Source of the DNA: Zopfochytrium polystomum
Taxonomy: Eukaryota; Chytridiomycota; Chytridiomycetes; Chytridiales; Chytridiaceae
NCBI GenBank assembly: GCA_025765615.1
Contig: JAIVFJ010000103.1
Span: 1 to 64,000 of the forward strand
Direction: 5' to 3'
DNA length: 64,000 bases
Under the pieces are notes generated by a model that was not told the DNA's origin, did not search any database, and was given only the letters and a program-made list of their open reading frames with translations. This document shows positions 107 to 64,000 of this stretch, one piece after another. The stretch's first letter is position 1. Every line of letters begins with the position of its first letter. Both the position numbers and the translations under genes were made by a program.

Positions 107-1012
107 TGATGAAATCCCACCCAGGACTGGATGGACTTGGTGTGTGTGGGGATGAAGAGAGAGAGAGAGAGAGAGCAGTGATGATGGAAAGGGGAGAGGA
201 GTGAGAGGATGGAGAGAGGAGAGAGGAGTGAGTTGGCAGAGACGGAAGAGAGAGCAAATGGAGGAAGAGAGATTGGCTTGTTTTGCACTGGATTCTGTCA
301 AAGCAGCAAGGAGGGGGTTGGATTCCTTGTTTGAACTCTGTGAGAGGTTGCTGCTTTTATACTCCTCCAGTTTGGAGCCATCAGAAAACAGAGGGAGTGG
401 GCTGCACAGAGCAGGCCACAGAAATGAGATAAAGCAGGCTGAGCACCAATCCCCAGCCTGGGCTAAGTACCCTTTCAGGGCTGGGCATCACTCAGGGCTA
501 AGTACCAGCCTGAGCTGAGTATCACCAGGAACCAATTTACAGCTTGTTTGAGAAACAGTTACTTGTAAATTGGTTTGGTTGTTTCCAAATCAGGAAGCTT
601 GTTTGGGAAACAAGCCGCTTTTTTTCCTTGTTTTTAGAAATCCAATGATTGGTGCAATCTCTGGTGAGCTCAGTTTTTATCTCACTTTTAGAAATGCAGT
701 GATTGGTGCAATCCCTGATTCCTAAATGCCTGTTGCATTGCTCAGATTGCACAGCACAGCAGGAAAGCTGGAATTCCGGAGCATGGGGCAGTGGTACACT
801 GCTTCTGCATGCTTGCTGTGCTGTGTTACTTGTGCAGAATGCGTAGTTGGAGCGTTTTTCTGCATGTTCTAATTGCATTGTTCCTACTGGTAGGATGAAC
901 AAAGCTAGAACAACAGCCGCCTTTGCCTATCTCTTTTTATTGAGAACAGATTAGCCATTCCGAGCGCCCCATTCAAGTATTGAATCTACTGAGCCCTTCA
1001 AACACCCCATCA
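107..1012 (-). repeat. 905-bp inverted repeat, left copy (LTR-like)
   Basis: This stretch is the reverse complement of 4655-5559 over its full length. Two long frames (318 and 366 bases) translate identically in both copies, so identity is close to 100 percent. Read on the minus strand it begins TGATGGGG and ends CATCA, the TG..CA form of an LTR. It carries a TATA box (354-361) pointing to the outer end, and a (GA)n tract near 157-175. It is either the terminal inverted repeat of the element that holds the recombinase gene, or an LTR in inverted orientation. No target-site duplication is visible at 102-106 versus 5560-5564. Confidence 0.85.
354..361 (-). promoter_or_regulatory. TATA box in left inverted repeat, facing outward
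   Basis: TATAAAAG on the minus strand, mirror of 5305-5312. Transcription from it would run out of the element towards position 1. Confidence 0.5.
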
Positions 1013-1937
1013 AAAAGTGTTAGTGTTGAGTGTCCAATAAAGATAAACGTTGATACTCCTTGGAATGAGCCAAAAGTTATTTTCAAGGAACATTGTGTTT
1101 TGTCAGAGAAGTTGGTTTGGATAATTCATCAGAGTGATGTAATTGAGGTGAGGACTCAGGTATGGCTGTGGAATTTCCTGTGGTGTGGGACCTGGTGTAG
1201 TGTGTTAGTATGTCTGTGTATAAAAGCTGAAGCAGTCAATATGTGTGAGTTGAGGTCCCTAGCCAGGGTCAAGTAAGCCCAGCAATAATAGTCAATTTTC
1301 AGCGAAAAATCGCAAGTGGACGGTGGCTGACCATCCACCCTGACAAGTCACCCCCGCCCCCCCCACGACAACTGCCACCACTGTCCCTCCCACCAATGCA
1401 TCCACCATGCGTGGTCAACCCTTCCATCACGCGCTGATGGCAGGGACACTGTTGATCTCGTGAAGTCGCATGCAGTTGCTGTGCTGTAGTCGATGGGGAA
1501 AGGTTGATCGGTATGGAGATGGCACCACCAGGTTGTGTGCGATGGTGCTGTTGCTGCTGTTGGTATTTAAAACAAAGACGAGCAGCCGAATCCACCAGCT
1601 GGCACACCACCCTTGCAGCTGCCGTCTCAACACCTTAGATCACTCAAAACTCACCTTGTATCTGAGGTGGAAGACCAAGGCGTCTCCTTGTGCGAGTACG
1701 CCGAGCTTCGAGTTTCTTGATTGTGTCTTCCTTCCCCATTTTCATTTGAATGAAAAAAAAAGGCAGTTTTGCACGAACCGCAACACACATATGGCCCTCC
1801 TGTTCTTTATTCAACTCTTTTGCATTTTGCCTGACATCGATCAAGATGAGCTGCGGGATTGAATTTTACGTCAAACCTCTCCAAAAATATTTGTGTGTCC
1901 CCATTACAGTGGCTCTCAAGACAGTCAAGCACTGGGG
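1013..1937. other. Spacer between left repeat and recombinase gene
   Basis: AT-rich sequence with only short overlapping frames on both strands and no recognisable domain. It lies downstream of the minus-strand recombinase gene and probably holds its 3' untranslated region. I see no gene in it. Confidence 0.5.
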
Positions 1938-4646
1938 TCATAGATGAGTGACAAATGTTCGAGCAGCACCCGTTAGCATGCTCATTTTTGCTGGAAGCTG
2001 AGATTTAAGTTGCTTCAAAAGCTGAAGCTTCTCAACTCCAGATACAAGCTTCACTCGCTTTCGGCCCTCCAAGTCATCGTCACCAACTTTCCGTTTCCTC
2101 TTCTCTGGCGCTTCCAAAAAGTTTGGACCAAGTCGCTGAGCAGCTTGCAGCACTGTCTGTGGTGAAGGCATGGGCAGCATTTCCGTAGTGGACACTGTTT
2201 CCGCTTCTGCAGCAGGAATTTGCGGCAATGGCACAGGAGTCAATGTAAGTTGAGAATTCGTCATCAGCACTGGTGGGGGTGGCAGCATTGTTGGAAGTTG
2301 CGTCATTTTTGTTGTCATTGCCTTTGCTGCTGGTGCTGTGTGTGTGGTTGATGGCAATAGCGCTGGTGTTGGTGTTGGGGTCAGATCAGGGCCAAGGTTG
2401 TTGGGGAAGGGATCAGGGTAGGTCTTAATATCAGCGGTGCTGTCAAGGTTAGGGTGTTGGTGTTGGCGTACCAGTCAGCGTCAGCTGAAGCAGTGGGTTA
2501 ACTGTTGCTGTTGCAAATGCACTGGGTCTTGGAAGCGGTGCGGGAGGTGTTGAATTCAGCAGCTCGTTGTCCATTCTGCTCCTGGTCACCGCGACAAGAG
2601 CCATTTGCTGCTGAAGCATCAACTTGACATATTCTTCAACCCACATCATTGCTTGAGCTGCCAGCTCTGATCCATTTTCAGGATAAGACCGCTCCAACCG
2701 CTTCTGTAACTCCTCCGTGGCAGTGTCTGTTGACTTCAGCAAAAGGACTCGCTCCACAGCGTTTCCAACACTGAAACTGGGGTGAGTAACTGGATATTCT
2801 GAATTAACCTCCATATAATAAACAGCCAGAGAAGAAATCGATTTGAAACCAGATGGATTGGCAACACTTCTAGCAATATTTGGATTGTTTACTCAAATTG
2901 CTTTCCACAGTATGGAATACTTTGGAATCTCATCATTTGCTTTCAGCATCTCCAGAATAGTGGATGCATCCTTCTTATACAGTAAAGCACTAGCTGCTGT
3001 CTTGTGCCGAGACCCATCCATCAGGTCCAAATCGCTTGCTGCATTCAAAACGGCAATAATGAAAATGTCTTTCGACAGGTGTGAGTTCCAAAAAAGCGGC
3101 CGATGCCGGTATTTTCATCAACTGCACGACCAAATAAGCTATAGCACAGATCGCGAATTTTTTCAAGGAACTGCTTGTCAGAAACGTGATCAGTGATCCC
3201 TGCAAATGTAAGTCCTCCTTCTCGACTTTTCTGGATCATAAACGAGGGAAATAGATAGCCACTTGTCGCACCCAGACAGTAAATGTAGACTAAACGGTGG
3301 CGGACCGGGCAGAGAAGTGGGTTCTTGTTGTCTGCCCAAAGCTGTAAAAATACTGGTGTTGAGTCTGACCCTTTCGGCTGAACACAATTAAGAACTTGCT
3401 GGGCACGGAAAACCCAAAACCAGTCCACTCACCATGATGTCCACACACACTGACTCAACAGATAGAGATTTGTTTGAGCGCCGTATAGTAGAAAGGTCAA
3501 GGTGAACACTATCAAATGTCAAGTTGACTGCCTCCATCTCACGAAGCCCGAGTTTACAGGAGATAATGATAAGAACAAACCACATTAGATCTGTAAGGCT
3601 CCCAGTACTAATCAGTCAGGCACGAAGCTGCATGAGCTCATGGGGTAAAAGTGGAGAGTCCCCCTGGGGAATATAATCAGAATCATCAGCCATTGTTTGC
3701 TTATAGTAGTTCTCCACATGCTCTGAATTCCGAGGGTTTCCTTTCTGAAATAGATAGATTTGAGGGCATGCTCTCGACAACCTTTGCTTTTTCTTGCATA
3801 CATTTTTTGGCAATCGGAGCAAGGAACTGTGTATGGACTAGTTTCACTGTGCCCGCGGACTTTGTGGACTGCAGATACAAATGAAAGGAGCTGGTTAACT
3901 GCATTTGGAGCATTCCATCCTCCTTGGCAAAGCACAGTCTCCATTTTCGGTGAACCGTCCTTCTCGAAGCCACGATTCTTCCCAACACAAATAGCTTTCA
4001 CCTCTTCTCCGTTGCGGTTAAGGAGTGGTGTATCCTTTTCGCCTCGCTTATATTTCATCGCTCATTGATGGGCATATTCCACTGGGTGGGAAGTCCTTCA
4101 GAGTGAGAAGGCTCTCATAGTCTCTGATAAGGGTGAAAAAAAACTTCAACCCCCGAATATGTTTCTGAGCTGATTGCTTCGATGTTGACTTGTACACCTG
4201 TTCTCCAAGCGGTGGCTTTCGAGTGGATGAGCGCTTAGGTCCAAGTTCTTTCAATTTTTCCTCCATTCCTTTGATTCCCGTCCAAGAAGGAAATTGATTA
4301 TTGAAATGAAAGACCACAGGGCAGCTAAAAAAAAAAATAAACATACCAGTACCGACCATTTCCTGACGTTCTGGATCAATATCAAATAGATTGACTTTGT
4401 TATAACCATCACCACGCATTCGCTTCCTCGCAATATCCATGTCCTTTTGAACTGCTTTTTTCTTTTTTGCTGAAACAGCTCCTTTCCGCTTTGGTGTTGC
4501 TCCTGCTGTGACAGATTTTGCCTTCTTCCCCCGAATGGGATTTTCGCGATCTTTGACTTCAGTTGAAACAGATGGCAGCTGTTGAGATTCGACCCACGGG
4601 GTACACTACGCCCGTTACTGATGATCCCTTTGAGAACTCCATCCAA
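1938..4646 (-). pseudogene. Crypton-type tyrosine recombinase, decayed
   Basis: A tyrosine recombinase cuts and rejoins DNA through a tyrosine-phosphate link and moves Crypton-like elements. Read on the minus strand, a basic N-terminal part (about 4646-3830) leads into the core. The core shows the first Arg in GLREMEAV (about 3540), LWADNKNP and CPVRHRL (about 3310), GYLFPS, the HxxR box in GTHTCRKT (about 3080), SRHKT (about 3000) and the nucleophile in LLYKKD (about 2970). A stop at 2893-2895 and a proline- and lysine-rich C-terminal part (2892-1938) follow. Breaks: TGA at 3616-3618, a frame change near 3720-3760, and a one-base loss in the T run at 3062-3065. GTGAGT at 3432 to CAG at 3378 would be a 55-base intron restoring the frame there. 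The gene cannot make a full protein as read. The family is clear; the exact subfamily is not. Confidence 0.8.
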
Positions 4647-4654
4647 TCACATTG

Positions 4655-5559
4655 GATGGGGTGTTTGAAGGGCTCAGTAGATTCAATACTTGAATGGGGC
4701 GCTCGGAATGGCTAATCTGTTCTCAATAAAAAGAGATAGGCAAAGGCGGCTGTTGTTCTAGCTTTGTTCATCCTACCAGTAGGAACAATGCAATTAGAAC
4801 ATGCAGAAAAACGCTCCAACTACGCATTCTGCACAAGTAACACAGCACAGCAAGCATGCAGAAGCAGTGTACCACTGCCCCATGCTCCGGAATTCCAGCT
4901 TTCCTGCTGTGCTGTGCAATCTGAGCAATGCAACAGGCATTTAGGAATCAGGGATTGCACCAATCACTGCATTTCTAAAAGTGAGATAAAAACTGAGCTC
5001 ACCAGAGATTGCACCAATCATTGGATTTCTAAAAACAAGGAAAAAAAGCGGCTTGTTTCCCAAACAAGCTTCCTGATTTGGAAACAACCAAACCAATTTA
5101 CAAGTAACTGTTTCTCAAACAAGCTGTAAATTGGTTCCTGGTGATACTCAGCTCAGGCTGGTACTTAGCCCTGAGTGATGCCCAGCCCTGAAAGGGTACT
5201 TAGCCCAGGCTGGGGATTGGTGCTCAGCCTGCTTTATCTCATTTCTGTGGCCTGCTCTGTGCAGCCCACTCCCTCTGTTTTCTGATGGCTCCAAACTGGA
5301 GGAGTATAAAAGCAGCAACCTCTCACAGAGTTCAAACAAGGAATCCAACCCCCTCCTTGCTGCTTTGACAGAATCCAGTGCAAAACAAGCCAATCTCTCT
5401 TCCTCCATTTGCTCTCTCTTCCGTCTCTGCCAACTCACTCCTCTCTCCTCTCTCCATCCTCTCACTCCTCTCCCCTTTCCATCATCACTGCTCTCTCTCT
5501 CTCTCTCTCTTCATCCCCACACACACCAAGTCCATCCAGTCCTGGGTGGGATTTCATCA
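4655..5559 (+). repeat. 905-bp inverted repeat, right copy (LTR-like)
   Basis: Inverted partner of 107-1012. Read forward it ends in TTTCATCA, carries TATAAAAG at 5305-5312, AATAAAAAG near 4728 and a CT tract near 5490-5508. It lies directly against a gypsy gag relic that starts about 200 bases downstream. It could therefore be the 5' LTR of that relic, but no direct-oriented partner is present at the far end of the gypsy region and no convincing primer-binding site follows at 5560. Confidence 0.8.
5305..5312 (+). promoter_or_regulatory. TATA box in right inverted repeat, facing outward
   Basis: TATAAAAG in a GC-rich setting, about 460 bases before the first ATG of the gypsy gag at 5767. It would drive transcription out of the repeat into the gag. 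Confidence 0.5.
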
Positions 5560-5766
5560 CCTTGTGTCTCTGCGCAGTGCGCACTCCCCTACCTGCGACT
5601 CAATAGTGTGCCGCATGCAACTTTAGTTTCCTTTAGTATGCTCCTGTTATTCTTACATCCTAGGAGATCGTACTCTGCGATATGTACATCCCTTCTCTCT
5701 GCGTGCATTCTGATGCACTCCATAACACCTCAGAGAATTCCATATCGGAGGATTTCGCCTAAGCAC

Positions 5767-7487
5767 ATGATGAAACAAATTTTCCTCATCACATCTCTGC
5801 TTCTTTTCCCACCTGTGACATCAGCCGCATCAGATGATATCTCATCTGGTGGATACCCTGCAAATTTTCCTTCTTGGTTGGGGCCAGGAGTATATAAACT
5901 GGGGGTTCCCCTCCTGATTTTTCTCATCATCCTCACACTCTCCCACACATTCAAACTGGCTCCTTCCTCGTCTGATCGAGAACCCAACTCAAAGTACTTC
6001 CTTTACAACGACCAACTCTATCGATACTTTGACGGGTCCTTCTGCCTTTCTGGTGCAAGCTCCTTCCTTGAGTACGATAGCCCTGAAGACCTTGCTCTTC
6101 AGCACACACTTTTCCAGGTCAACCCTGCCAGGTTCCCCCTTCGTGGCTGCTGTACAACTTCCATCTGGAAAGCCTTTGTATTCCATCTTGGAGGAACCCG
6201 ACGCGACCCTTTTGTCCTTCCTCCTCCACCATCTGTTACTACACCTGAGTTCTCTGGCTTCTCTGACACCACTGGTTCTGGTCCTGTTTCATCTTCGCCA
6301 GGCAACCCCGATCTTGTTTACGCCTTTGACGTTCCTACTCTCACTGCCATGGCTGATGAAGAAAAGCCCACTCTTGATGTCACCAGCTTGTATGCTGCTG
6401 ACCTTATCTCCCACCCTGAGGGAGAGGATCCCGCTCTGACCATTGCCAAGGAAAACGAAATTCTTCGTTGCCTAGGATACAACAAACGCCTCACTGAAGA
6501 TGTAAATCGCCTTAACACTGAGCTTGCTTCCATCCTCATCGACAGTAAAGGAAAACGCCCGGCCACTGGTTCCGCCTCTGCTGACTCTGCAACTAAGGCC
6601 ATGGCCTCTTATTTTGCTGATGGCCAGTTTAAGGACACGCTTGAGAATATTGGCAATAACTTCTTTGCTCAATACCCTCTGTGCACAATCAACTCCCAGT
6701 CCTGAGTGATGATTCAACTGCTTCAGTAAAGAAGTACCTCTGCGACTTCATCACTACCTTCAACACTTACCGCCCTAAGTTTGCCTCAGACAATGCTCTT
6801 CTCGTCGCTATGATTAAGCCTACCTGCTTTCCAACTGAAAGGGGCAGCCTATTCTTCCATCAACTCTCTAGTACGCTATCAACCCTGACGCTAGCGCAGT
6901 TCAAACATCAACTCCTACTTACACTGCTCCTGCCTCAGCTTGGCCACACAGACGTCTATTCACTTCACCCCTTCCAATGGGGCAACCTCGACCCAGCTAC
7001 TGATGCTCTTGCAATTCGCCGTGCCAACGACGAGCTTCTTACCCCGCTGGATGATGAGTCTGTCAAGCGAGAATTCATCGCATCTTGCCCTTGCCCTGAT
7101 ATCCAACAGGTTGCCACCTGCCAAGTATACCGGATTGGCACCAATAAGCTCTTCTATCAGGACCCCTGTGTCACACTTGACTCTATCGCTGAAGTTATGA
7201 TGAAAAAATGGCCCAGTGTCATTCTACAATCTAATGTTGCAACTCCTCCTCCTCGTCGCACTGATGGCCGTGATGATGGTCGCCGCCCTCGTAACAAGGA
7301 ATCCTTCCTTGCGGCCATCACCACTGCCTATGACCAACTCTTTGAGGAAGATCAACCTGAGGCTGAGGTTTACAACAACGAGCAACAACCGCCCTCTGGT
7401 CGTCAGTATTCTCAAAGCTTCAATAGGGGCCCCTATGTGCTCTGCAGTCACTGCAAGATCCCTCTCAGCCTTTCACACCCTGATTGA
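5767..7487 (+). pseudogene. Ty3/gypsy gag relic A
   Basis: Gag packages retrotransposon RNA. The ATG pair at 5767 opens a frame to 6705; a second frame overlaps it from 6681 to 7487, so one frameshift near 6690 splits the gene. The middle part (FPTERGSLFFHQL, then a hydrophobic helical stretch) resembles the matching part of the second gag at about 11,320 (FPTAKGSQFF), so both belong to one gag superfamily. An LCSHCK remnant of a zinc knuckle lies near 7440, its second half lost. The first 25 residues look like a signal peptide, followed by a hydrophobic segment near residues 45-60, which is unusual for a gag. The frame is also open upstream into the repeat, but that part is low-complexity and probably not coding. 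Confidence 0.6.
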
Positions 7488-8073
7488 TACTGCATTCTTA
7501 TGCAGATGGCTGAACATTACCTTAAGTATGGCTTTCTGCCTTCAATGTTTCCAACTGCTCTAACCCCTGCTTCTGCAGTGGCCTCAAACAAGCCAATGAC
7601 TCCAAGCCCTCTGCTTGAATTATCTTTACCTTTATCCCAACCCATTTATGATTTACCTACATCCTTTTTTACCATGGTCAACTCTCAATTGGAGAGCCAT
7701 GCTTTTCCCCCTTTGACTTTGGTCTTATCACCATCATTTTTAGAAGAAATAAAACTCATCCTGTTATCCCCAACTTACACTGCTTTTCCACCAAATCTCT
7801 TCCAAGGTGGCCACCCTGCTGTTATCCTTGATGACTTCAATGAAATTTTAATCACAAACAAAGCTTGTTGCTGTCTTGCCTCAACCCTTTACTCTTATCC
7901 TGAAGACCCCAAAGCGACTTCCTGTCAACTTCCTGCTCTGCCGAAATATCGGTTACTTCTTTAAGTTCTGAAAGAAATGACCGCTGCTGTTTGTGGATGG
8001 TGGTGAACTACTCTGGTGGACTACTCTCTTGTGATGGTGAAGCTGAGATGGGAGACTGTTGCACAATGTATGC
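7488..8073 (+). pseudogene. Degenerate gypsy internal sequence
   Basis: One weak frame (7500-7964) continues the reading direction of gag relic A but shows no clear domain. A short stretch (near 7820, AVILDDFNEIL) recalls the end of a retroviral-type protease (compare AVILGTPVLKEF in element B), so this may be the decayed protease of relic A. Confidence 0.35.
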
Positions 8074-9660: not shown

Positions 9661-12034
9661 GGTTCTGACACACGCCGTCACACCATCGTCACACTGGGTG
9701 ATGCTACTGTTGTCGCTATTGCTGATGAGACCTTTCCTGACCGACCTGTAGGCAATGAGGTGGTGCACCAGTATGTATCATCACTAACTCTGGCATAAGG
9801 GTATTGTCACTGACGCTGATGGTGACGATGACGAGAGCGGCCTTCGACAGTGAGGGTTCTTCCAACCTGAGGCTCGAGTCTTCGTGTTCACCCGCCACTT
9901 TGCTCTCCTCAGCACTACTGGTGGTTATTGCCAAGCCATCCTACCTGAGTCTGAACGTGAGCAGTACATCATCAGACAGCTGTCCATTGACCTCAATGAA
10001 CTGATGCGCTGCCAGCCTCGTTGCCCATTCCCCTGAATGGATCAATTGGCTTTTTGCCCACCTGCCCCACGACTGGCCTGGCACTCCTGTCCTTACATCC
10101 CAGCGAGACGGATACATTGAATATAACCGCTGCCCTCAAAAACCTTGACAGCACATACACGATGTCTACCTTCATACACCTCTGTATCCACATCAACTTT
10201 GAAACTGCCGTTGATGAGCTTTTTGAACCTGTTCACTTCTACTTCGAAGCCATTGACACTGACGTTGTCTTCCTCCCCTGGGAAGGCAAGTTCGTACGCC
10301 CTGGTGTTGGTATCGTCACCCAAGGTTTGCCCTCAGAGCCCCGCCTGTATTGCTACTTCTGCACAGTGTACCCCGATCTGCCTGCCATGCCACTGGTAAC
10401 TGACAACTGGGCTACCCAGGTTGCTAGTATCCCCAGCTTTCCCACTGCAGCTGAATGGCCCTTCCCGATCCCCTCATGCATGGAGCGATTCACAGTGCCT
10501 ACTGAGAGTCATCGCCTGCGAGTTTTGCCTGATCCTTCAGTTTCGTCCACCCACGACCACGCGTACGCCTTTCATCGATGTCCTCAGAGGTCCCCACCTC
10601 TGACACCACTTCCCGCCCTCGGTCATCCCCTTCTGCCTGTTTTGATGCTGAGGTTGCTGAAGCTGCTGCCCGCAACGATGCTTCCTGTCAATCTGCTGAA
10701 CGTGCTGCCCTCGTTTGCCAGGAGGCTGAACGAGCTGCAGCTGCCCATGCAACTAGCCTCCGTGACGCTGCTGACACCGCTCGCTGCTCCCAACTTGCTG
10801 CTTGGGCTGAAGAATACCACCGATGTGCTGCCACAGTGGCCCCATCCACCACTGCTTGAGTTCCAGCTGCCCCTGCTGCCAGCCCCACTTGTCCCCCCAT
10901 CGAGACATTGTATTGTCGATCACTTACACCACCACATGGCGCACATGTCCCCTATGTGTCTCCGCAGACACCACAGACACCTGTGTCAGTGGCACCACGC
11001 TGCACACCACCCATGCCATCAGGAGTTGGTGTGCCACCGATCCCCAACCCCATGGCACATGATGAGACCCTCGAACCTGTCAGTTCCTTTGCTGGCTTTG
11101 GCAATGGTGGTCCAAACAGGAATATTGACTACCGTGTTGCCAAAGACATGCGCAAACACCATGTCAGATCGCAATACGGAAATCCCATCACTGCTGAACT
11201 TCTGTTCCCATGTCTTCAGTTGCTTGACGTGTCTGGTCGTCCAACCTGTCGATGCTTCCAAATACAAACCGCTTTTCTGGGACACCGGCAGCTTCTTTGA
11301 GCACATGCTCAATGCAAGCACCTTTCCGACAGCAAAAGGCTCCCAGTTCTTCATGCGCATCCGAGGGAGCCTCTCCTCCTTTACCTGGACAACCTTCAAG
11401 GCCATGTACGATCAGCACTTTGGCCTTGACTCTGCGTTCTGGGACTACACCTGGTCCCCATCGGCCACTTCCCCTGCCGCTGCCTTGACTGACCTTGAGC
11501 TCCTCAACTCACACCAGTCAGAGCCTCATGGCCAGCGTGGCATCAAGAAGCAGCTGGTTGATCTTGCACCAACCAAGCCCTTCAAGAGGTCTTCCAACAC
11601 GATCTCATCCCAACTGCAGCTGGACAGTTTAATTACTTGGATCACCGCGTCACAGCCAATGACCTTGCCTGGCGCCTCAACATGCTCTCTCTCACCAACC
11701 TTCCTGATCAGTCTGAGTTCAATGCTCTGCAAACTGAAGTCGACTCGCTCCGTGGCGCTCCTCTGCCGTCTGCACTGAACAGCCTATCACTCCCTTGCCC
11801 TGTCCCCATCGCACTTACACTACAGAGGAGGAAACCATGTATGGCAGCGCACTGCCCCCAGTGATGCGTGAGACTTCTCTCCCCCTGCAGCGCTCAGGCT
11901 CCTGCCACCTCTGCAACAAGCCTGGTCACTTTGTTTCAAACTGCCCTGAGCTTGCTGCAGCTAAGCAGGGTTATGTGCCCCAAGCGCATATCTGGAGACC
12001 TATGTCAGTCTCGACAACCGCGTTGCAACAGTAG
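9661..12034 (+). pseudogene. Ty3/gypsy element B, gag region
   Basis: Gag part of the second gypsy element. The main frame runs 10021-11778 (585 codons) with broken coding stretches before it (9661-10020, stop near 10035) and frame changes near 10580 and after 11480. It includes a long N-terminal region of unknown role, a low-complexity Ala/Glu-rich stretch best read in frame 10578-10859, the capsid-like block at 11260-11480 and a CCHC zinc knuckle (CHLCNKPGHFVSNC) at about 11,910-11,950 that binds RNA. The 5' LTR of this element is not recognisable in the window. Confidence 0.65.
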
Positions 12035-12048
12035 CCCGTGTTTCTGCC

Positions 12049-13135
12049 TGGGTCCAGGGTTTTATTCTTCCTGACTGCCTTGTTGATACTGGCTCCAATC
12101 ACAATGTTGTGACTACTACATTTCTGGAGAAGCTACGCAAATCACCTGTAATGACTCCTTTGAGTCGACCTGCCATGAATAAAGGAATAGGCAGACAAGT
12201 GCCTATTTTGGGTCATGTTTACATGAAGGTCAACTTTGGAAGAAGTGGTGCCTGTGCAAAATGGTTCCGCTTCTCTGTCATCCCTCATTGTCCCTGTGCA
12301 GTCATTCTTGGAACACCTGTTCTTAAAGAGTTTCACACCATTATCTCTTTTGAACATGACACCCTAATGTGGAAGGCTCAGACTCCCCGTGGAGTCACAA
12401 CATGGTTTAAAACTCCTCTCATCTCTTACCAGCGTGTCACTGCCGGTAACGAGACCAACATCTCCCAACAGGACGAGGCTGTTGACATTGTTGTTTCTGA
12501 AGACATTGTCCTGGCCCCGAATCACAGTTGCGCCATTAAGGTTCAGCTCTCCCGTCCTATGATTCACAGGAACGGCTTTGTTCACACAACGCCTTTTGCA
12601 TCCCTCATGGATAAGAAAATACACTTCCCTGGTTCTCTCCTCACTGCTGCTGACCTACACCACCATGATGGTGAAACTCGCTGGTTCTACGTACCCCTGC
12701 TATGCTTGCAGCACAAGCCAGAACAGATTGCGGCAGGAACCTGTGTTGCCCGTATCTTTGATATTCCGTCCAGCTTGGACAGCTCTGAGGCCACCCGTGC
12801 TGCCTGTCCCAGAGAGTCTCCATAACTCTCCTGACGCCCTTCTTGCTATGTTCAGTGTTGCACAGAAGTATGAGCCTGAAGACTTAGAGTCCTTCCTTAG
12901 TGCCCTCGACAACATTGAGAAAGGTAATTCTGGTCTGTATGCTGAGGCAACCTCCAATCCCTCTGAAGACGTTGAACTTGTGGAAGACGTCTCTGAGGCT
13001 CCACCTCTTCCTGACGCTGTCAAGGATGTTTTCCGTCTCTTTGAGGAGGCAGAGGAGGACCCTGGTAATGAGTCTGACACTGAAACCCTCCTCGCAGAGG
13101 ATGATGATTCTTCCGTCGCTGATATGCCGCACTGA
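12049..13135 (+). pseudogene. Element B aspartic protease and acidic linker
   Basis: The retroviral-type protease cleaves the Gag-Pol polyprotein. The active-site DTG lies in CLVDTGSNHNVV at about 12,080-12,115 and the second conserved block in AVILGTPVLKEF near 12,300. The frame 12109-12825 is open. It then shifts into 12578-13135, an acidic Glu/Asp-rich linker. The domain joins directly to the reverse transcriptase that follows. Confidence 0.75.
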
Positions 13136-13193
13136 AATACTACACACGCAGACCAGCTGAAGCCAATATGACTGAGAAGAGATATGGGCTAAG

Positions 13194-14632
13194 TTGAAAA
13201 CAAAGCATATTGCTGAGATTGTTGGTGAAGAGACAGTCACCCGTCTAAAGAAATTAGTGGACAAGTACATTAATATCATCAGGCCTGGTGTCCTCACTCG
13301 TTCTAAGCTCCCACCTCCCCACACTATTGGGTTGCAAGAGGGTGTTAAGATTCCTGCTAGTAACCCCTACCTGGAAGGACTTGGGCGCACAGAGGTGCTC
13401 CGAGACCACATCACCCAGATGAAGAGTGCTAATGTCATACACGAAAGTCACTCTCCTTTTGCAGCACCTGTAGTCCTTGCTTAAACCTGATGGCTTGTGG
13501 TGCTTTTGTGCTGACTTCTGGAAACTGAATGAAATCACAATCAAGGACCGACATCCACTCCCCCGAATTGAGGAAGTCTTTGACGCAATTAGTAACAAAT
13601 GCATCTTTAGTGCCATGGATTTGCTCAGTGGCTTCTGGCAAATCCCTGTCAAAGAAGAGGATCGCCACAAAATGGCGTTTATATCTTCACAAGGCCTCTT
13701 TGAGTTTAAAGTCATGCCCTTCGGCCTTTGTAATAATCCCCCAACTTTCCAAAGAGCAATGGATCATGTTCTTGCTGGCATCAAGTGGTTATACTGCATG
13801 TTGTATGTAGATGATGTTGTTGTGTGCTCCAAAACACTCAATGAACACTTTGAACACCTCGAAGGTGTCTTTGCACGCTTCTCAGAGTACAACCTGAAGT
13901 TGAAACCCTCCAAGTGCAATCTGTTCCACTTGGATCTCCCATTCCTCAGACATCAGGTCTCCGCAAAGACCCTGCTAAAATGGTTGAACTCAACCAGTAC
14001 CCAGTGCCGACGACTTTGAACCAGCTTCAGCAGTTCTTGGGGTTCGCCAACTACTTTAAGCGTTTCATCCCAAACTATTCAGATACGGTTCAACCTTTGA
14101 ACGATCTGTTATCCCACAAACTTCCATTTGTTTGGACAGAGCGTCAGGACGAGGCCTTCAACCTTGTCTGCAAAGAGTTGAAAGTCAATACAATTCTCTC
14201 TATCCCACAGAAAGGGGAAAAGCTCCTCATTGAAGTCGACGCCTCAGGCAATGCCCTTGGCGCTGCCCTTTACATTGTGGACCGACAGGAACCCCATAAC
14301 CGAGAGAAGCGAAAACCTGTTGCCTTTGCTTCCTGTGTTCTTGCTGATGCTGAGATGCGCTATTCGACTCACGATCGTGAAGGTCTTGCTATTGTGTGGG
14401 CTGTTGACACACCTTTGAGCGCTACCTGTTTGGTCAGTCATTCATTGTCGAAACAGACCATGCACCACGGCTGCAGCTGTTTAAGAAAGTACCACTTACT
14501 GGATGCTTTGCCCGATGGGCTAACCAGCTCTCTGACTATGACATTGAACTTGTTCATGTCTCTGGTAAAAGAACGTCGTAGCTGACGCCCTCTCCCGAGT
14601 CTTCCTTGGGCCTGCAGATTGATCTTGCGAAA
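13194..14632 (+). pseudogene. Element B reverse transcriptase and RNase H
   Basis: Copies element RNA into DNA and removes the RNA strand. Frames 13194-13484, 13477-14019 and 13914-14585 overlap with frameshifts near 13,480, 13,940 and 14,400. Seen motifs: SPFAAPVVL, DRHPLPRI, FSAMDLLSGFWQI, MPFGLCNNPPTFQ and the catalytic YVDD at 13,804-13,815. The connection domain has FLGFANYFKRFIPNYS (about 14,035). RNase H acidic residues lie in LIEVDASGNALG (about 14,230), STHDREGLAIVW (about 14,365) and ETDHAPRLQ (about 14,450). ADALSR near 14,585 closes the domain. Motif spelling is that of Ty3/gypsy chromoviruses. Confidence 0.85.
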
Positions 14633-14739
14633 ATGTCCCTCCAGAGGATGACAACACAACCATCAGAACAGGGGGGTGAAGCGAAAAAAGAGGTACTCAG
14701 TAAGGAGCCTTCTCCCTTGCTGACCCTGAGTTCCCCAGC

Positions 14740-15800
14740 TTGGGTCACCTTGATACTATGTACCAATCTCTGTTTATGCAACAGCGCCAGGAGATGGAAA
14801 GTCTCCGTGCAGCTGCTGATGCCTGCCCTGCAAACATTGAACCAGACCCGGTTATCAAGAAGAGGCTGTTACACCATGCTCTCACTCGCATTCGGCATGC
14901 ACCACCAAAACCACCTGTGTTTCCAAGTGGAAGCCTTCACTGAACATCTCCACTTGGAATGTGAACGGAATTAATTCCTGGCTCAAAGTTGCCTGCAAGG
15001 CTGGTTTACCTTATGCCCAGGACCCAGATCTTGGTCGGTGCCTTGAAAACTATTTGAACTCTCAGTCTTCAGCCATTGTCTGAGGAGACTCGCCTTGGCC
15101 CAAAGAGCCAGAAGCTCATCGATCACCTCAGTAAAATGAAGGATTGGAGATGTATCCTCCGCGACCCCCGTACCGGACGGAACGGAGTAGCTATCTTTTA
15201 TCGCTCTGACCTTAACAGTTCAGAATATGAAATAGCAGGGGATGCCCAGCATTACACAGAAGGTTGTGTTGCAGCCCTTGTTGTGGGAGAATATGCAGTG
15301 ATGACCTGGTATGCACCAAGTGCTTTTGGTGACAATACTGGTCTCCGTCAGTCCTACAAGATGAAGTTTCTTAACGAAATGGCAGATTATTGTTCTGACC
15401 TTCTTGCACACAGTTACAAAGTTATTATAGCTGCTGACATTGATGTGTATTCACAACTCTGGAAAGAGATGGAAATTGCAAACGGGACCTTCCCAACTTG
15501 CCTTAACGAAGAAAGGACTTGGCTCTCTCGTTTCCTGGACTTGGGTTTCACTGATGCTTTTCGGGCCCATCATCCTACCGAGCCTGGTTTAACATGGACC
15601 AACAAGGCCCGTGACACGCCTTATTGGTTCCCTCTACTCCAAGTGGACTACTTCCTTGTGAGTAACAACATCCCTCCTTTGGTGTATGACGTTCGTATTC
15701 ATTATGATATACCTGCTGACTCAGAACGAGTTGCTAGTGACGACTATCGCTTGGAGTTACTCACTGCACTGGAAGCACCCCTGAGGTCAATGAGCTTCGG
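14740..15800 (+). pseudogene. Exonuclease III/AP-endonuclease-like domain inside gypsy pol
   Basis: Endonuclease/exonuclease/phosphatase (EEP) enzymes of the ExoIII/APE1 branch nick DNA at abasic sites. After RNase H and a linker of about 65 residues, the frame at 14,937 reads LNISTWNVNGINSW, the classic N-terminal strand. A small deletion shifts the frame near 15,070 before EETRL. The open frame 15076-15819 then shows GVAIFY, WYAPSA, AADIDVY (usual GDFN), ERTWLSRFLDLGFTDAFR and QVDYFLVSNN, in the order of ExoIII. The final SDH is read as SDD (about 15,740), so the catalytic His is lost in this copy. No HHCC finger or DDE core is seen here. LINEs carry such a domain before their reverse transcriptase, but here it follows RNase H and no LINE reverse transcriptase comes after it. 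Confidence 0.75.
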
Positions 15801-17202
15801 GAAGCCTTTACCTTTTTAGATGAACTTAAGTCAACCAAGACTGAGGCCTCCAGGCGTGAGACCTGAGAAAATCCCAAAGTTCTCGATGCCTAACTTCCTG
15901 CAATGGAGCCTCTCTGAGCCTGCTCTTGCACTTATGCTCCACCGTTCTGCCATGGACAGCAGCGCGTTTTACCTCTACTCCAGCTCCAACTACGTTTGCA
16001 GAGCAGAGTTGATTTACCCTGAGATCATGTCACACTTCTCAAATGGCTTGATTGGATATTCGAACAATGGAAGTCTTTCACACTTCCATCTCAACAAGCA
16101 GGGAGAACTGAAGTCAGTTGATATCCTCCCTGAACCATGGAATAGGGAAGCACCTATTAATGGGACCAAGCTCTGGCCTGGTCTTTCCGCACCAATTCTG
16201 TTGGATATCCCCAAACCTACTGGCTTGGAGGAAGAACCACTCACTTGCGCAGTTGGGTTGATTTTGACAGAACCTCACGTTGCTGAGCCCTCAACCGGTT
16301 GAAGGCAGCAGCACAAGAGACTGTTATTTCCCGCTCTGAGAAATACAAAGAGGCCCTTCGACAGGCCTCCCTCAATAGAGACAAGGATCCCTACTTTTTC
16401 TGACTTGGAGAGAAAGCATGGATGGCTGTTCCCTCTTGACAACCCTGGTAACATTGGTGACAAAAGCCGTTCTCTTATTTTCTGGTGGGTTGGACCTGTT
16501 TGAGTCGTCGCCATCACAGGCAAGGACGCAAAGACACAATACAGTGTTGTAGAAACATTCCCTGCTGGACAGATTGTGGTGCAAACTGTCCATATCTCCC
16601 GTCTGAGACCCTACACTGAGCGGCCTCCTGTAGACTCTGCGGAAGATGCTGTTACCAATAGTCTTGATGACTTTGAGAAAGAGCTTGAAGGGTAGAAGAC
16701 TGCCACTCGGCTCATGAAGAAACCTGCCTCCAAGACCACAACAGCCCCTGGAGTGCATGTTGACGCCCTTAAGAAGTACACTTCAGAGGAAACCGAAGAC
16801 CAAACTGCTGATGTAGAGTATCCTATCGAGAGGATCAAAGGTCATACCTTTGACGGAGAAAAGTATTACTATCTGACCAAGTGGTTAGGATTCTCTACCA
16901 AACACAAATGGTACCAACTCAAAGAAGATCTTCACCGCCTTGCAGTGCGCGACTACTGGGAATTGGTGAAGACTGATGATCCTGAAGAATATCAGAAACG
17001 ATTGAAATGGTCATGGCTTCCAAAGAGCTGCAAGTTCTGTGTGCCTACTGCAAAGGTGGCCACACAGATGATAATGGAGAGAGATCAGCGCTTGCTTCGT
17101 CCTCTCACCCCACCACACAAGCTAGTGCACTGTCTGTACAACCTGCCCCAAGTCAGCCTGTTGCTGGCCTGCCTACACCACAAACTCAACCTGTGCCCCT
17201 GA
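15801..17202 (+). pseudogene. Element B integrase tail with GPY/F module and chromodomain
   Basis: After the EEP domain a helical linker leads into frame 15820-16302, which weakly resembles the end of a gypsy integrase core (HRS..SAFYL near 15,940) and its post-core helix (LKAAAQE, near 16,300). The GPY/F-type module reads FWWVGPV, a TGA at 16501-16503, VVAITGKD and VHISRLRPY (to about 16,615). Frame 16714-17202 contains a chromodomain: YPIERIKGHTF, YYLTKWLGF, KWYQLKEDL (about 16,815-16,940). Chromodomains steer integration to modified histones. The tail ends in a short CxxC-like stretch. The element is inactive as read. Confidence 0.7.
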
Positions 17203-17284: not shown

Positions 17285-18689
17285 TGTGAGACTACACCGA
17301 GGTCTCAGTGATAAAGTCTAGGGATTTTATTCACAAAAACAAGCGTATCTGTCATAAAACTGCAAGGATCCGGACCCCTATTATTATTCCCGGTTCTTTA
17401 GTTTCCAAGGCGTTATCAAAGTGTATTTGCAGCTAACCCATCTTTATTATTGGGCCTGCTTTTACTACTTTCGTCTTAACAGTTTCTGTTGCGCCAGGGT
17501 TTTCCCAACATATTTTCTTTTTCGGTGACTAACAGAGACTGCCCAACAGGCCGTACCCCAAGCCCACCTAATTTATTATTTATTTTTGGCACTTGTAAAT
17601 ACACGCATAGGGTTGGGGGGGACTTAGAGCATTTGTGGTGGATGCTCCAAGTCAGGGGGTTGACTTGTCAATTTTCTCTCTCTCTGTTTTTGGGCCATTT
17701 CGCTTTTTCCTTTTTTTCTTCAATCTGATTTCTGTCCATTGGCACCAATACAGAGTCCCTTCAAATCCATTTGGCTCACGAAGGTGAGGGTAGTGAGAGA
17801 TGGTACACACCCAGGTGTGTACATGGTCCCTTCGTGGGGCTCCTCTTAAGGGGCCGTGGGTGGGGAATGCAGCTGGCCCCACCAGCGACTGTGTGACATT
17901 GCTGGCTCTGTGTTGGAGTGAGGATCACAGGCACTTGCCCGCTGCAATGACAGTGGTGGTGGTGGGGGAGACAACAGCGTCGTCGTCCCCAACCTTCCCG
18001 TCCCTGTGAGGGTGCTGGTGGCTGCGCTCAGTGCAGCCCCGGACACCTGAGAGTTCAATCTACGAGTGCCTGCCTCAGTCCTATTGCTGTGAGAGTGAGA
18101 TGTGTGAGTACGAGTGCAATGCAATAAAGCCCGTTGGTCGAGTGATTGTGCTGACGCAGCCTGGCGGGGTGCGAGTTCCCTGCTGGTGACCTTCTGACCC
18201 CTACATAGTCGACTCCCTTCTCTCTCTCCCCCCCCGTCGCTGGCAACAACAAGGGCTCCTGCAGCACTGTCCGCGATGAGGGGCACTAGGTCGCACCCTG
18301 TCCATCCCATCGCTATCAACCGCTCCTGTTGTATTTGAGATTAGGTTCCTGAGATAAAAACCCCCATTTCCCTCTTCTCTCTCTTTATTCTGCGGTTGTG
18401 TTGCACCCTTGGGAGTGCCCTTCTGTTTCCCCTCGCATCGGCCTGCGGCCACGCGAGTAATCGGTGCTCCGGCACTGATCCTTCAGAGGATTGTCCCTCT
18501 GAATGTTCATTCTTTGTGTTTGAGACCCCTGTTAGACAGATCAGTAGGGATACTTTGTGGACTAGGCAAGTAGTAGGGTTGAAACACTCCCTAGACAACA
18601 GCCCAATAAAGTTAGTTTTAGCCTATTATTTGCTTTCCCTCACTCTGGGGCCTAGATCCCAGGGTCTAAGGAGTGAGTATAGTCTCACA
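17285..18689 (+). repeat. 3' LTR of gypsy element B
   Basis: A purine tract (AAAAAAGAGG at 17,271-17,281) directly precedes it, as expected for plus-strand priming. The LTR begins TGTGAGACTA at 17285 and ends TAGTCTCACA at 18680-18689, a perfect 10-base terminal inverted repeat. Length is 1405 bases. It holds no gene. The bases after it (TCCTC) are the expected 5-base target duplication, but the 5' LTR needed to test this is not in the window. Confidence 0.8.
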
Positions 18690-61837: not shown

Positions 61838-64000
61838 TGTGTTCGGCTTTGAGCCAAGTGTGTGTGCCTTTTTAGTAAGTATGCAGAGGTGCCTTAGCTT
61901 CCCTACTGTAATGACAGATCGCGCATATTTTCTAACTCATAATTGAGTTCTTCATGAAGCCCAGTCCGTTCAGTGCGCACAGTGAGGCATATGAGATTCC
62001 TAATCTCATGGGCCATTGAGCTGTTGAGGTCTCTTTAAAAGCTCTTCCTTGACTAGTTCATTGGTTTTACCTTTACATATAGTGGCCCCCCATCAATCAC
62101 AAACAACCACTCTATTCCTATGTTTGAATACTTATTCTTACTTTCAAAAGTAACTCAGTGCTGATGCCCCGCATCAAAAAGAGCATCTGGTGTTCCTTGT
62201 GCTGAATGGGCCTAAGCACAAGGGGCACACCCTTTATTTCTTCTTATTTCTTCTTATTTTTACTCATTTTCTCTTATTTTCCCTTTTTCCCACCTTTCAA
62301 GCCTCTGTCCCTGCACTAATGTGGTCTCCCAGCCCTCAATTTTCAGCCCATCTCAAATATGAGGCAGGAGAGACACTGGGTGGAGGGAGGTGTGGCTGAA
62401 AGATGATTCATTCTAACAAATTGTTCTTTTCTTTCATTTTCTCCTTTTTACTATCTTTTGTCTTTTTCCTCTTTTTCTTCCTCCTTCTTTCTTTCTCTCT
62501 CTGATCCCCATAAATACTGCCCCTCTCCCCCTTCTTCTCTTCAATAATAACTCTCAACTCAAAAACAATCAATAAGACTCCCCCTTGGGCAGCCCCTGTT
62601 TGACTAGTTGTGTCCCTCATATCTCCTTTCAGGGTGTTGTAAGGTGAGTGCCTCCCCAAAAGACCATGTGTGTGGTGGATAGGAGTTCCCTGGCAAAGTG
62701 CAGAGTGGGCCAAGCTTTCTTTGTTACTTACAGAATCTGCCATTGCACCCCTCTTTTGAGCACAACTTCACCATCAGATTCTTCCCTCTTCAAGTCAAGC
62801 CTGTCTCATCTTCCACATCAAGTTGGTATGTCAGATACCATTCCGTCCTGTATGGGCGCTCCAGGGCTTAACCCTGTCATCTCATGCCTATGGCACCCAT
62901 GATTCATTCATGTGGAGACTTGTCTCTGTATGTTTGTCCATGGCTGTTATGGTACTCATGAGTCAGCAATGACTCTTGACATTTATTAATTGGTATATCT
63001 GTGCTTTCAGAGCATACATAGAGAGTAGTATTAACACCAACACCAGGGTACTGGCCCTTAGAACCAGGAGTTCCCCATCATTGATGACTTGTCCTTTCCC
63101 CACATATCCACTAGATAATGGGATGAGCCTTCAGAGATGTAAAGGATCTCATAGGCGCTGGCTGGGTCCAACAACAGTAACAGAGTGGTTTTTACTTGTT
63201 TGCACTCTAGTGGTAGAGAGAGAGCAGGCAGATGTGATTGGAATCTGTGATGATGCTTCTCTGGAGTTGCTGGGGCTCCCCCTGTTTGTACTGCAGGTGG
63301 TCTCAGGAATCAGACTTTGATGATAGCTGAGAAATGGAGTTTAGACTTTGAAGGGTCAGGAAGCAGGCTTGACATCACGCTGATTTGCCAGAATTTCCAT
63401 GGAGTTATGTTTGCAAAGAAGTAAGGTTCCCTGTCAAGCACCCATAACCCAGACTGGTTAAAACCACCTCATCTTGAAAGGTACGTGTATTATGAGCAAA
63501 CTCCAACACTTGTGCTTTTCCCCCTCAGTCACTTACGCAATGCCACGGCCCCGTTCATGGGGACCACCTTTTCGACAGCTCTGCCTACATCCGATTCACA
63601 GGTGACAACAAATGCACCAGTATATAAAAACCCGAACTCAACAGGCGATTACTGGCTTCGCTGAATCGCTTCTCGCAAACTAGTAACAACCCCATGCACT
63701 CTGTTAAACGTTGAAGTTTCTTGCTGCCCCTTGTTGCTCTTCAACAACAGATTGACCACCCTGAAGGGATCTGGACCGCTGCGAGAGAATTGCAGCTTTG
63801 GTTTCTTGTTGCTGGCGACTTTGCCAACTGGTTCAGGGTTTGAGTCTTGGCTGCGTGCTGGTTTTTTTTTTCCCTTTTCCTGTGTCTTGCCAGAGTGACC
63901 GGCAGCAATATACGTATTGTCGTCATATGATATCGAGAGCAGTGATGGTGCGGGCAGGTTGACCCGGGAAAGGAAGGAAAGGGAAGGGAAGGGAACAGAT
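61838..64000. other. Unassigned repeat-like DNA to the window end
   Basis: Only short frames without recognisable domains. 62,230-62,300 and 62,430-62,500 are T-rich low-complexity tracts. TATATAAAAA at 63,621-63,630 and CATAAATAC near 62,510 sit in LTR-like settings, but I cannot define LTR ends. The window closes with a GGAAG-type purine repeat (63,970-63,995). Confidence 0.4.

Follow-up and report, generated by a model that had tools for sequence, protein, structure and literature searches.

The window analysed here, 64,000 nucleotides of Zopfochytrium polystomum DNA (contig JAIVFJ010000103.1 of assembly GCA_025765615.1), contains a decayed chromodomain-bearing Ty3/gypsy retrotransposon. 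In this element, an endonuclease/exonuclease/phosphatase (EEP) domain of the ExoIII/APE type is located downstream of reverse transcriptase (RT) and RNase H in the same orientation. Related copies in the same genome carry RT, RNase H, EEP, the HHCC finger and DDE core of an integrase (IN), a conserved insert designated domain X, and a chromodomain, in this order and in single open frames. The element is of a known kind, a Ty3/gypsy chromodomain element; new is the lasting presence of an EEP in its pol. Taken as a whole, it appears rather probable that an ExoIII/APE-type nuclease was gained in pol of a giant (approximately 15 kb) element of this kind, most simply once and long ago, that the window holds a dead copy, and that the EEP repairs cDNA.

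Two copies, L007 (C40) and L020 (C251), were open throughout, and matches to the Pfam models RVT_1, RNase H, full-length Exo_endo_phos, Integrase_H2C2 and rve were found in this order. The extended open frames comprised 3741 aa in C40 (C40:103065-114287) and 3604 aa in C251 (minus strand, 87108-76297); in four copies (C40, C61, C442 and C251), a single frame of 3604-3741 aa contained RT, EEP and IN. The integrase matches of L007 had E-values of 1.2e-18 (Integrase_H2C2) and 1.3e-11 (rve), and the H, H, C, C and D, D, E residues were conserved across an alignment of three rows (C251, C40 and the metagenome protein P0122, described below). The Chromo model scored 34.4 bits in C40, above the cut-off of 25.1, and 20.4 bits in C251, below it. 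The copies C40, C61 and C13 are 14.7-15.1 kb long, and C442 spans 18.5 kb. The best PDB match of the RT was Ty3 Gag-Pol (6e-90), and the RT motif read YVDD or YIDD in C251, C40 and P0122. A gag or protease match to Pfam was not obtained in the open copies; both regions were named by eye, the protease from a D-S-G motif, and a zinc knuckle in C251 scored 18.3 bits, under its cut-off of 20.8. By the features tested, with gag and protease assigned by eye, the elements are Ty3/gypsy chromodomain elements. A preliminary description of this DNA had named intact copies with EEP, chromodomain and matching terminal repeats as support for an element without integrase. Such copies were found, with EEP and chromodomain in one open frame and, in C40, identical long terminal repeats (LTRs), and the integrase is present in them as well.

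Domain X, approximately 200-240 aa long, follows the DDE core and precedes the GPY/F-like integrase end. It could be aligned in C251, C40 and P0122 (there at approximately 3090-3280) at 18-28% identity. No Pfam match was obtained, and the top PDB hit, a poly(A) polymerase, was unconvincing at E 0.055. A further weakly conserved stretch of approximately 250 aa (L042 and L039) was observed between zinc knuckle and protease side in C251 and C40; it was poorly alignable in P0122.

In the preliminary description, the EEP was taken to stand in place of the integrase. The window copy indeed has neither HHCC finger nor DDE core. Four sibling loci (L056, L058, L071 and L057) were collinear with the window up to position 15848 and resumed at 15846/15847, with 1,476-1,488 extra bases in between (blastn) and an overlap of 2-3 bases at the junction. 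In tblastn comparison with C251, the match jumped from residue 2664 to 3168, so that the HHCC finger, the DDE core and the first part of domain X are skipped. Because collinear siblings hold approximately 1.49 kb more at 15846-15848, where other copies have HHCC finger and DDE core, the missing integrase is, as judged from these alignments, a deletion and an accident of one copy. The linker from EEP into the tail, previously regarded as natural protein, is therefore the deletion junction. In L010, the EEP continues into a typical HHCC finger. The gap in L011 was shorter (815 bases); by its sequence, L011 represents a partial loss of its own.

All seven family EEPs tested matched the ExoIII model xth (E 0.01 or better), and the EEP of L020 scored 132.4 bits against TIGR00633 (cut-off 99.05). 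Similarity was much higher to ExoIII (4e-33) than to the endonuclease of LINE-1 (approximately 1e-6), and an origin of the EEP from a LINE was ruled out by these scores. Mth0212, labelled as DNA uridine endonuclease, was among the closest folds in the matches listed. LINE endonucleases were absent from the 50 fold matches listed, which is no evidence by itself. The residues N, E, Y, D-x-N, D and D-H, which we take to be the catalytic residues of ExoIII/APE-type EEPs, were invariant in all 11 uninterrupted EEPs examined, P0122 included; part of them has been lost in the window copy. Ten copies picked for a stop-free EEP were used for analysis of substitution rates. Of 45 pairs, 29 were saturated; in the remaining 16, the dN/dS ratio (w) was 0.046-0.295, and these values indicate that the EEP is under purifying selection.

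The genome contained 132 PF03372 matches in total, many of them outside the EEP-element family. Clustering of 79 of 93 match rows, those with E up to 2.8e-7 and thus without the 14 weaker ones, resulted in 57 EEP loci. A family RT upstream together with a family IN downstream was found at 22 of these, RT only at 8, IN only at 11, and neither at 16. Of the 44 IN loci of the family, which were counted from the complete set of 61 rows outside the 33-34% class, fragment rows included, 33 have an EEP within 3 kb upstream; of the 33 RT loci of the family, 30 have one within 3.5 kb downstream. The position of the EEP was identical in five groups of copies, as grouped by us.

For comparison, RT-RNase H and IN are separated by only 226 bp (C18:217271 to 217497) in a high-copy family of this genome, most frames of which comprise 1255 aa, versus 1834 bp in C40. 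A scan of GTDB genome records resulted in 44 control loci, mostly gypsy pieces; 43 had an RT match, and the remaining one (L139) was an EEP match without RT. No EEP was found in the 43 RT-bearing loci, some contigs ending too early to tell. The gap between RT and IN could be measured in 31 of them and amounted to 211-730 bp in 30 and to 1432 bp in L118, where the gap is free of an EEP and reads as a proline-rich linker. Ty3/gypsy pol sequences were present in many prokaryote genome records (L096-L138) and look like eukaryotic contamination.

The same order of RT, RNase H, EEP, HHCC and rve was found in P0122, a metagenome protein of 3585 aa, which was the single match among 497 candidates in a protein search at lengths of 1638-5211 aa. 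A chromodomain match to Pfam was not detected in P0122 at E 0.1. Identity of its RT-RNase H region was 57-58% with the EEP clade and 32-33% with the EEP-less family of the Z. polystomum genome. The corresponding search at 681-2166 aa resulted in one match among 2489 candidates, P0001, an EEP protein with PF06839, presumably a GRF zinc finger. A search with an EEP profile recovered at least 2126 proteins (best 8000 candidates scored); all 120 proteins listed contained PF03372, and the named ones were nearly all exodeoxyribonuclease III.

In the RT tree (42 rows), a branch with support of 100/100 separated the seven EEP carriers from the 35 others; for L096, L125, L126 and L129, which are among the 35 and have no measured RT-IN gap, absence of an EEP means that none was found. 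In an EEP tree of 61 rows, six element EEPs were located on one side of a branch with an SH-aLRT value of 99.9; the remaining rows were P0001, P0110 and 53 ExoIII-like rows taken from the 120 listed. For relatives in IMG/VR, one scan was without a pattern match, and in another 30 stretches matched, none of which was confirmed. One old gain of the EEP followed by common descent fits these sequence comparisons best, but is not proven.

The two LTRs of C40 (908 bp) were identical at 908 of 908 positions, a young pair in a lineage that kept jumping. At least 77 pieces matching the LTR were found in the genome (40 of 325 candidates scored). Ten insertions were compared, and perfect 4-bp target duplications were present in nine: C40, C61, C13, C442, the outer ends of a three-LTR array in C49, and solo LTRs in C102, C206, C4 and C35. 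The tenth (C275) runs into internal sequence and was unjudgeable. Because the 4-bp duplications flank complete LTR ends, insertion is of the integrase type, and the LINE-like, target-primed insertion envisaged in the preliminary description is contradicted at all nine judgeable insertions. In the C49 array (C49:54463-83481), the central one of three consecutive LTRs belongs to two elements, both with an EEP; the outer duplication is AGAA. The integrated LTR termini were TG...TA at C40:101529 and 115299, as compared with the usual TG...CA. The primer-binding region of C40 (GTGGGGGGGATTCC) was also inspected for self-priming; the longest match was 7 bases, and a self-primer was rejected.

A role of the EEP in cDNA repair is proposed because reverse transcripts can hold uracil (accessible text of PMC7360050), some retroviruses keep a dUTPase, and Mth0212 is a close fold. 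RNA would be copied to cDNA in the particle of the element, and the EEP, freed from or still within Gag-Pol, would nick this cDNA at abasic or uracil sites. It would also trim blocked 3' ends of the cDNA and possibly leftover primer RNA. The ordinary integrase would then insert the cDNA, possibly with guidance from the chromodomain. The EEP would be analogous to the dUTPase between RT and IN of some retroviruses, with repair instead of prevention. By this analogy, cDNA repair is a possible role, put forward tentatively. Comparably tentative is the wider picture of a deep and recently mobile LTR lineage, present in at least two organisms, which may repair its own cDNA before integration with a base-excision or nucleotide-incision nuclease gained once in pol.

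Several observations weigh against this account. The tryptophan before R-x-D-Y, which we take to be part of the abasic-site pocket, occurred in all of the 120 cellular relatives; 10 of the 11 element EEPs deviate at this position, and P0122 alone has kept it. Because of this change, the specificity of the element EEPs for abasic (AP) sites may be reduced. Neither a dUTPase nor a uracil glycosylase domain was detected next to the EEP (E up to 0.1). An adjoining EEP was not found for 11 of the 44 IN loci of the family and for 3 of its 33 RT loci; among these IN loci, one begins at a contig end and another (C85, L057) retains a short EEP end. Furthermore, the EEP tree is a quick tree with long branches.

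The changed pocket tryptophan is shared as an argument by two other explanations. According to one of these, the EEP acts within reverse transcription as a 3'-5' exonuclease or RNase H-like trimmer of primer RNA, plus-strand flaps and 3' overhangs, and base damage is not its target. Exonuclease and RNase H activities are known from enzymes of the ExoIII class, and the EEP sits after RNase H in the polyprotein. However, a full-length RNase H domain match is kept by the EEP elements, and other gypsy elements manage without an EEP, none having been found in the RT-bearing control loci, 31 of which have a measurable gap. Such a trimmer is considered unlikely, although worth keeping in mind. The other explanation assumes a broad nuclease for target access or counter-defence, which nicks host DNA or chromatin near the site bound by the chromodomain and leaves joining to the integrase. 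A chromodomain is present within the same polyprotein, and the loss of the pocket tryptophan in most copies resembles the loosened specificity of LINE endonucleases; the nine judgeable insertions, however, all show clean 4-bp duplications and none is irregular. This explanation is regarded as quite improbable.

Replacement of the integrase by an EEP that starts target-primed reverse transcription would account for a window copy without HHCC and DDE. Compared with four sibling loci this copy lacks approximately 1.49 kb, the open copies have kept both parts of the integrase, the 4-bp duplications occur with full LTRs, and the EEP is nearer to ExoIII than to a LINE endonuclease; replacement is therefore extremely improbable. 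Chance insertion into one gypsy copy, either of a LINE or of an AP-endonuclease gene from the host, could be imagined, since EEP domains are common in LINEs and many of the 132 PF03372 matches of this genome are outside the family. It is practically negligible in view of the 57 EEP loci, 22 of them preceded by a family RT and followed by a family IN, the same position in five copy groups and P0122, open frames in several copies, and dN/dS ratios of 0.05-0.30. The preliminary description had likewise argued against a random nested insertion, and this view is supported by the constant position and the single open frames. It had also named two findings that would speak against its proposal, a normal integrase in other copies and a nested LINE or host gene as source of the EEP. 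The former was found in the open copies, whereas the latter is contradicted by the constant position of the EEP in five copy groups and in P0122 and by the scores for ExoIII and LINE-1. Repair of cDNA by an EEP gained once in pol was retained as the working explanation.

With Ty3/gypsy chromoviruses (Metaviridae), the EEP elements share a Ty3-like RT, RNase H, an HHCC-DDE integrase, a chromodomain, LTRs and a short target duplication. They differ in the nuclease between RNase H and integrase, in domain X, in the size of approximately 15 kb and in the single frame of 3.6-3.7 kaa. The element EEP has the whole fold and catalytic set of the ExoIII/APE1 AP endonucleases (xth) and passes the TIGR00633 cut-off, but is part of a retroelement polyprotein and has a changed pocket tryptophan and a changed loop around it in 10 of 11 cases. 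Like the APE-type endonuclease of LINE (non-LTR) elements, it is a member of the EEP superfamily joined to an RT. The EEP of LINEs is N-terminal to the RT and starts integration, and LINE insertions have duplications of variable length and are without LTRs. In the elements described here, by contrast, the EEP is C-terminal to the RT, the integrase is kept, duplications are fixed at 4 bp, and LTRs are present.

A dUTPase blocks incorporation of uracil beforehand, whereas an ExoIII-type enzyme works on finished DNA, and the folds of dUTPase and element EEP are presumably unrelated. In common with dUTPase-bearing retroviruses and LTR elements is the capture of an enzyme for nucleic-acid quality into a polyprotein; as far as the accessible text of PMC5408684 and PMC12789967 goes, dUTPase is kept by some retroviruses and in vertebrate retroviruses is sometimes located between RT and IN. 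The Kuafuorterviruses also have LTRs, RT, RNase H and integrase. In the consulted parts of PMC11673190, they are a separate animal superfamily, mostly of 5-6 kb, with a sporadic Exo_endo_phos domain that may be host-derived and with I/V/L-A-D-D in the RT for Y-x-D-D; the EEP elements have YVDD or YIDD and a lasting domain under purifying selection. The accessible sections of a survey of LTR retrotransposons in fungi (PMC3248453) describe 'complex transposons' with additional domains through multiple insertions and name no EEP, and those of a review on giant transposons (PMC6431247) name AP-EN in Helentrons and not in LTR elements. In the open-access literature of PMC, as far as its text was available, no described lineage with the order RT-RNaseH-EEP-integrase was found.

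Accessory enzymes such as dUTPase hint at cDNA quality as a limit. A lineage in which selection has kept an EEP and which is still jumping makes it testable whether cDNA damage or blocked ends limit retrotransposition. In addition, the combination of EEP and RT does not equal a LINE, and automatic classifiers may misfile such elements.

The window copy is arranged on the plus strand. A gag-side remnant of the 5' part of the polyprotein (11110-11559) corresponds to residues 658-809 of C251 (tblastn, 30% identity, E 1e-14), and a protease-side region (11989-12768) to residues 1398-1656 (51%), the protease being recognised by eye from the D-S-G motif without a Pfam match. The RT (13161-13980; RVT_1 3.6e-28; tblastn 70-83% to C251) is interrupted, with frame changes near 13481 and at 13956-13980. 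It is followed by RNase H and the linker after it (13956-14695; RT_RNaseH_2 5.8e-21; tblastn). The decayed EEP (14925-15771) has a frame change near 15080, a partly deleted D-x-N loop and an SDH motif changed to SDD. The segment 15076-15816 alone scored 22.7 bits against PF03372, under the cut-off of 24.5; residues 3-239 of the window EEP were 94% identical to C54, a copy with an uninterrupted EEP. The gypsy RT-RNase H followed by an ExoIII/APE-type EEP, the frameshifts and the loss of a catalytic histidine (that of the SDH motif) had all been recognised correctly in the preliminary description, and the partial deletion of the D-x-N stretch is added here. With several frame changes, the altered SDH motif and the damaged D-x-N loop, the window copy is dead.

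Beyond the junction at 15846-15848, the remainder of domain X (15849-16300; tblastn to C251 from 3168) is followed by the GPY/F-like integrase end, recognised by eye (16403-16649; blastn 73.6% to C251), and a chromodomain-like end (16805-17001); tblastn aligned 15850-17001 with C251 3168-3545. The integrase-like tail reported previously was thereby recovered in the same orientation, whereas its chromodomain scored 17.8 bits in the window copy, under the Chromo cut-off of 25.1. The 3' LTR starts at 17285 (first part 17285-17320, TGTGAGAC...) after the polypurine tract AAAAAAGAGG, and a similar junction of polypurine tract and LTR is present in C40. A 5' LTR of the window copy was not found by self-comparison of the window (pieces >80 bases).

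A 908-bp inverted repeat of 99.9% identity was observed at window positions 107-1014 and 4652-5559. It was considered as a family LTR and rejected; the LTR of C40 matched the window only over 111 bases (62177-62287). The repeat ends exactly at the start of a second remnant of the lineage (5560-7969), a frameshifted 5' polyprotein fragment of the C40 subfamily with 92-95% identity over residues 475-1282.
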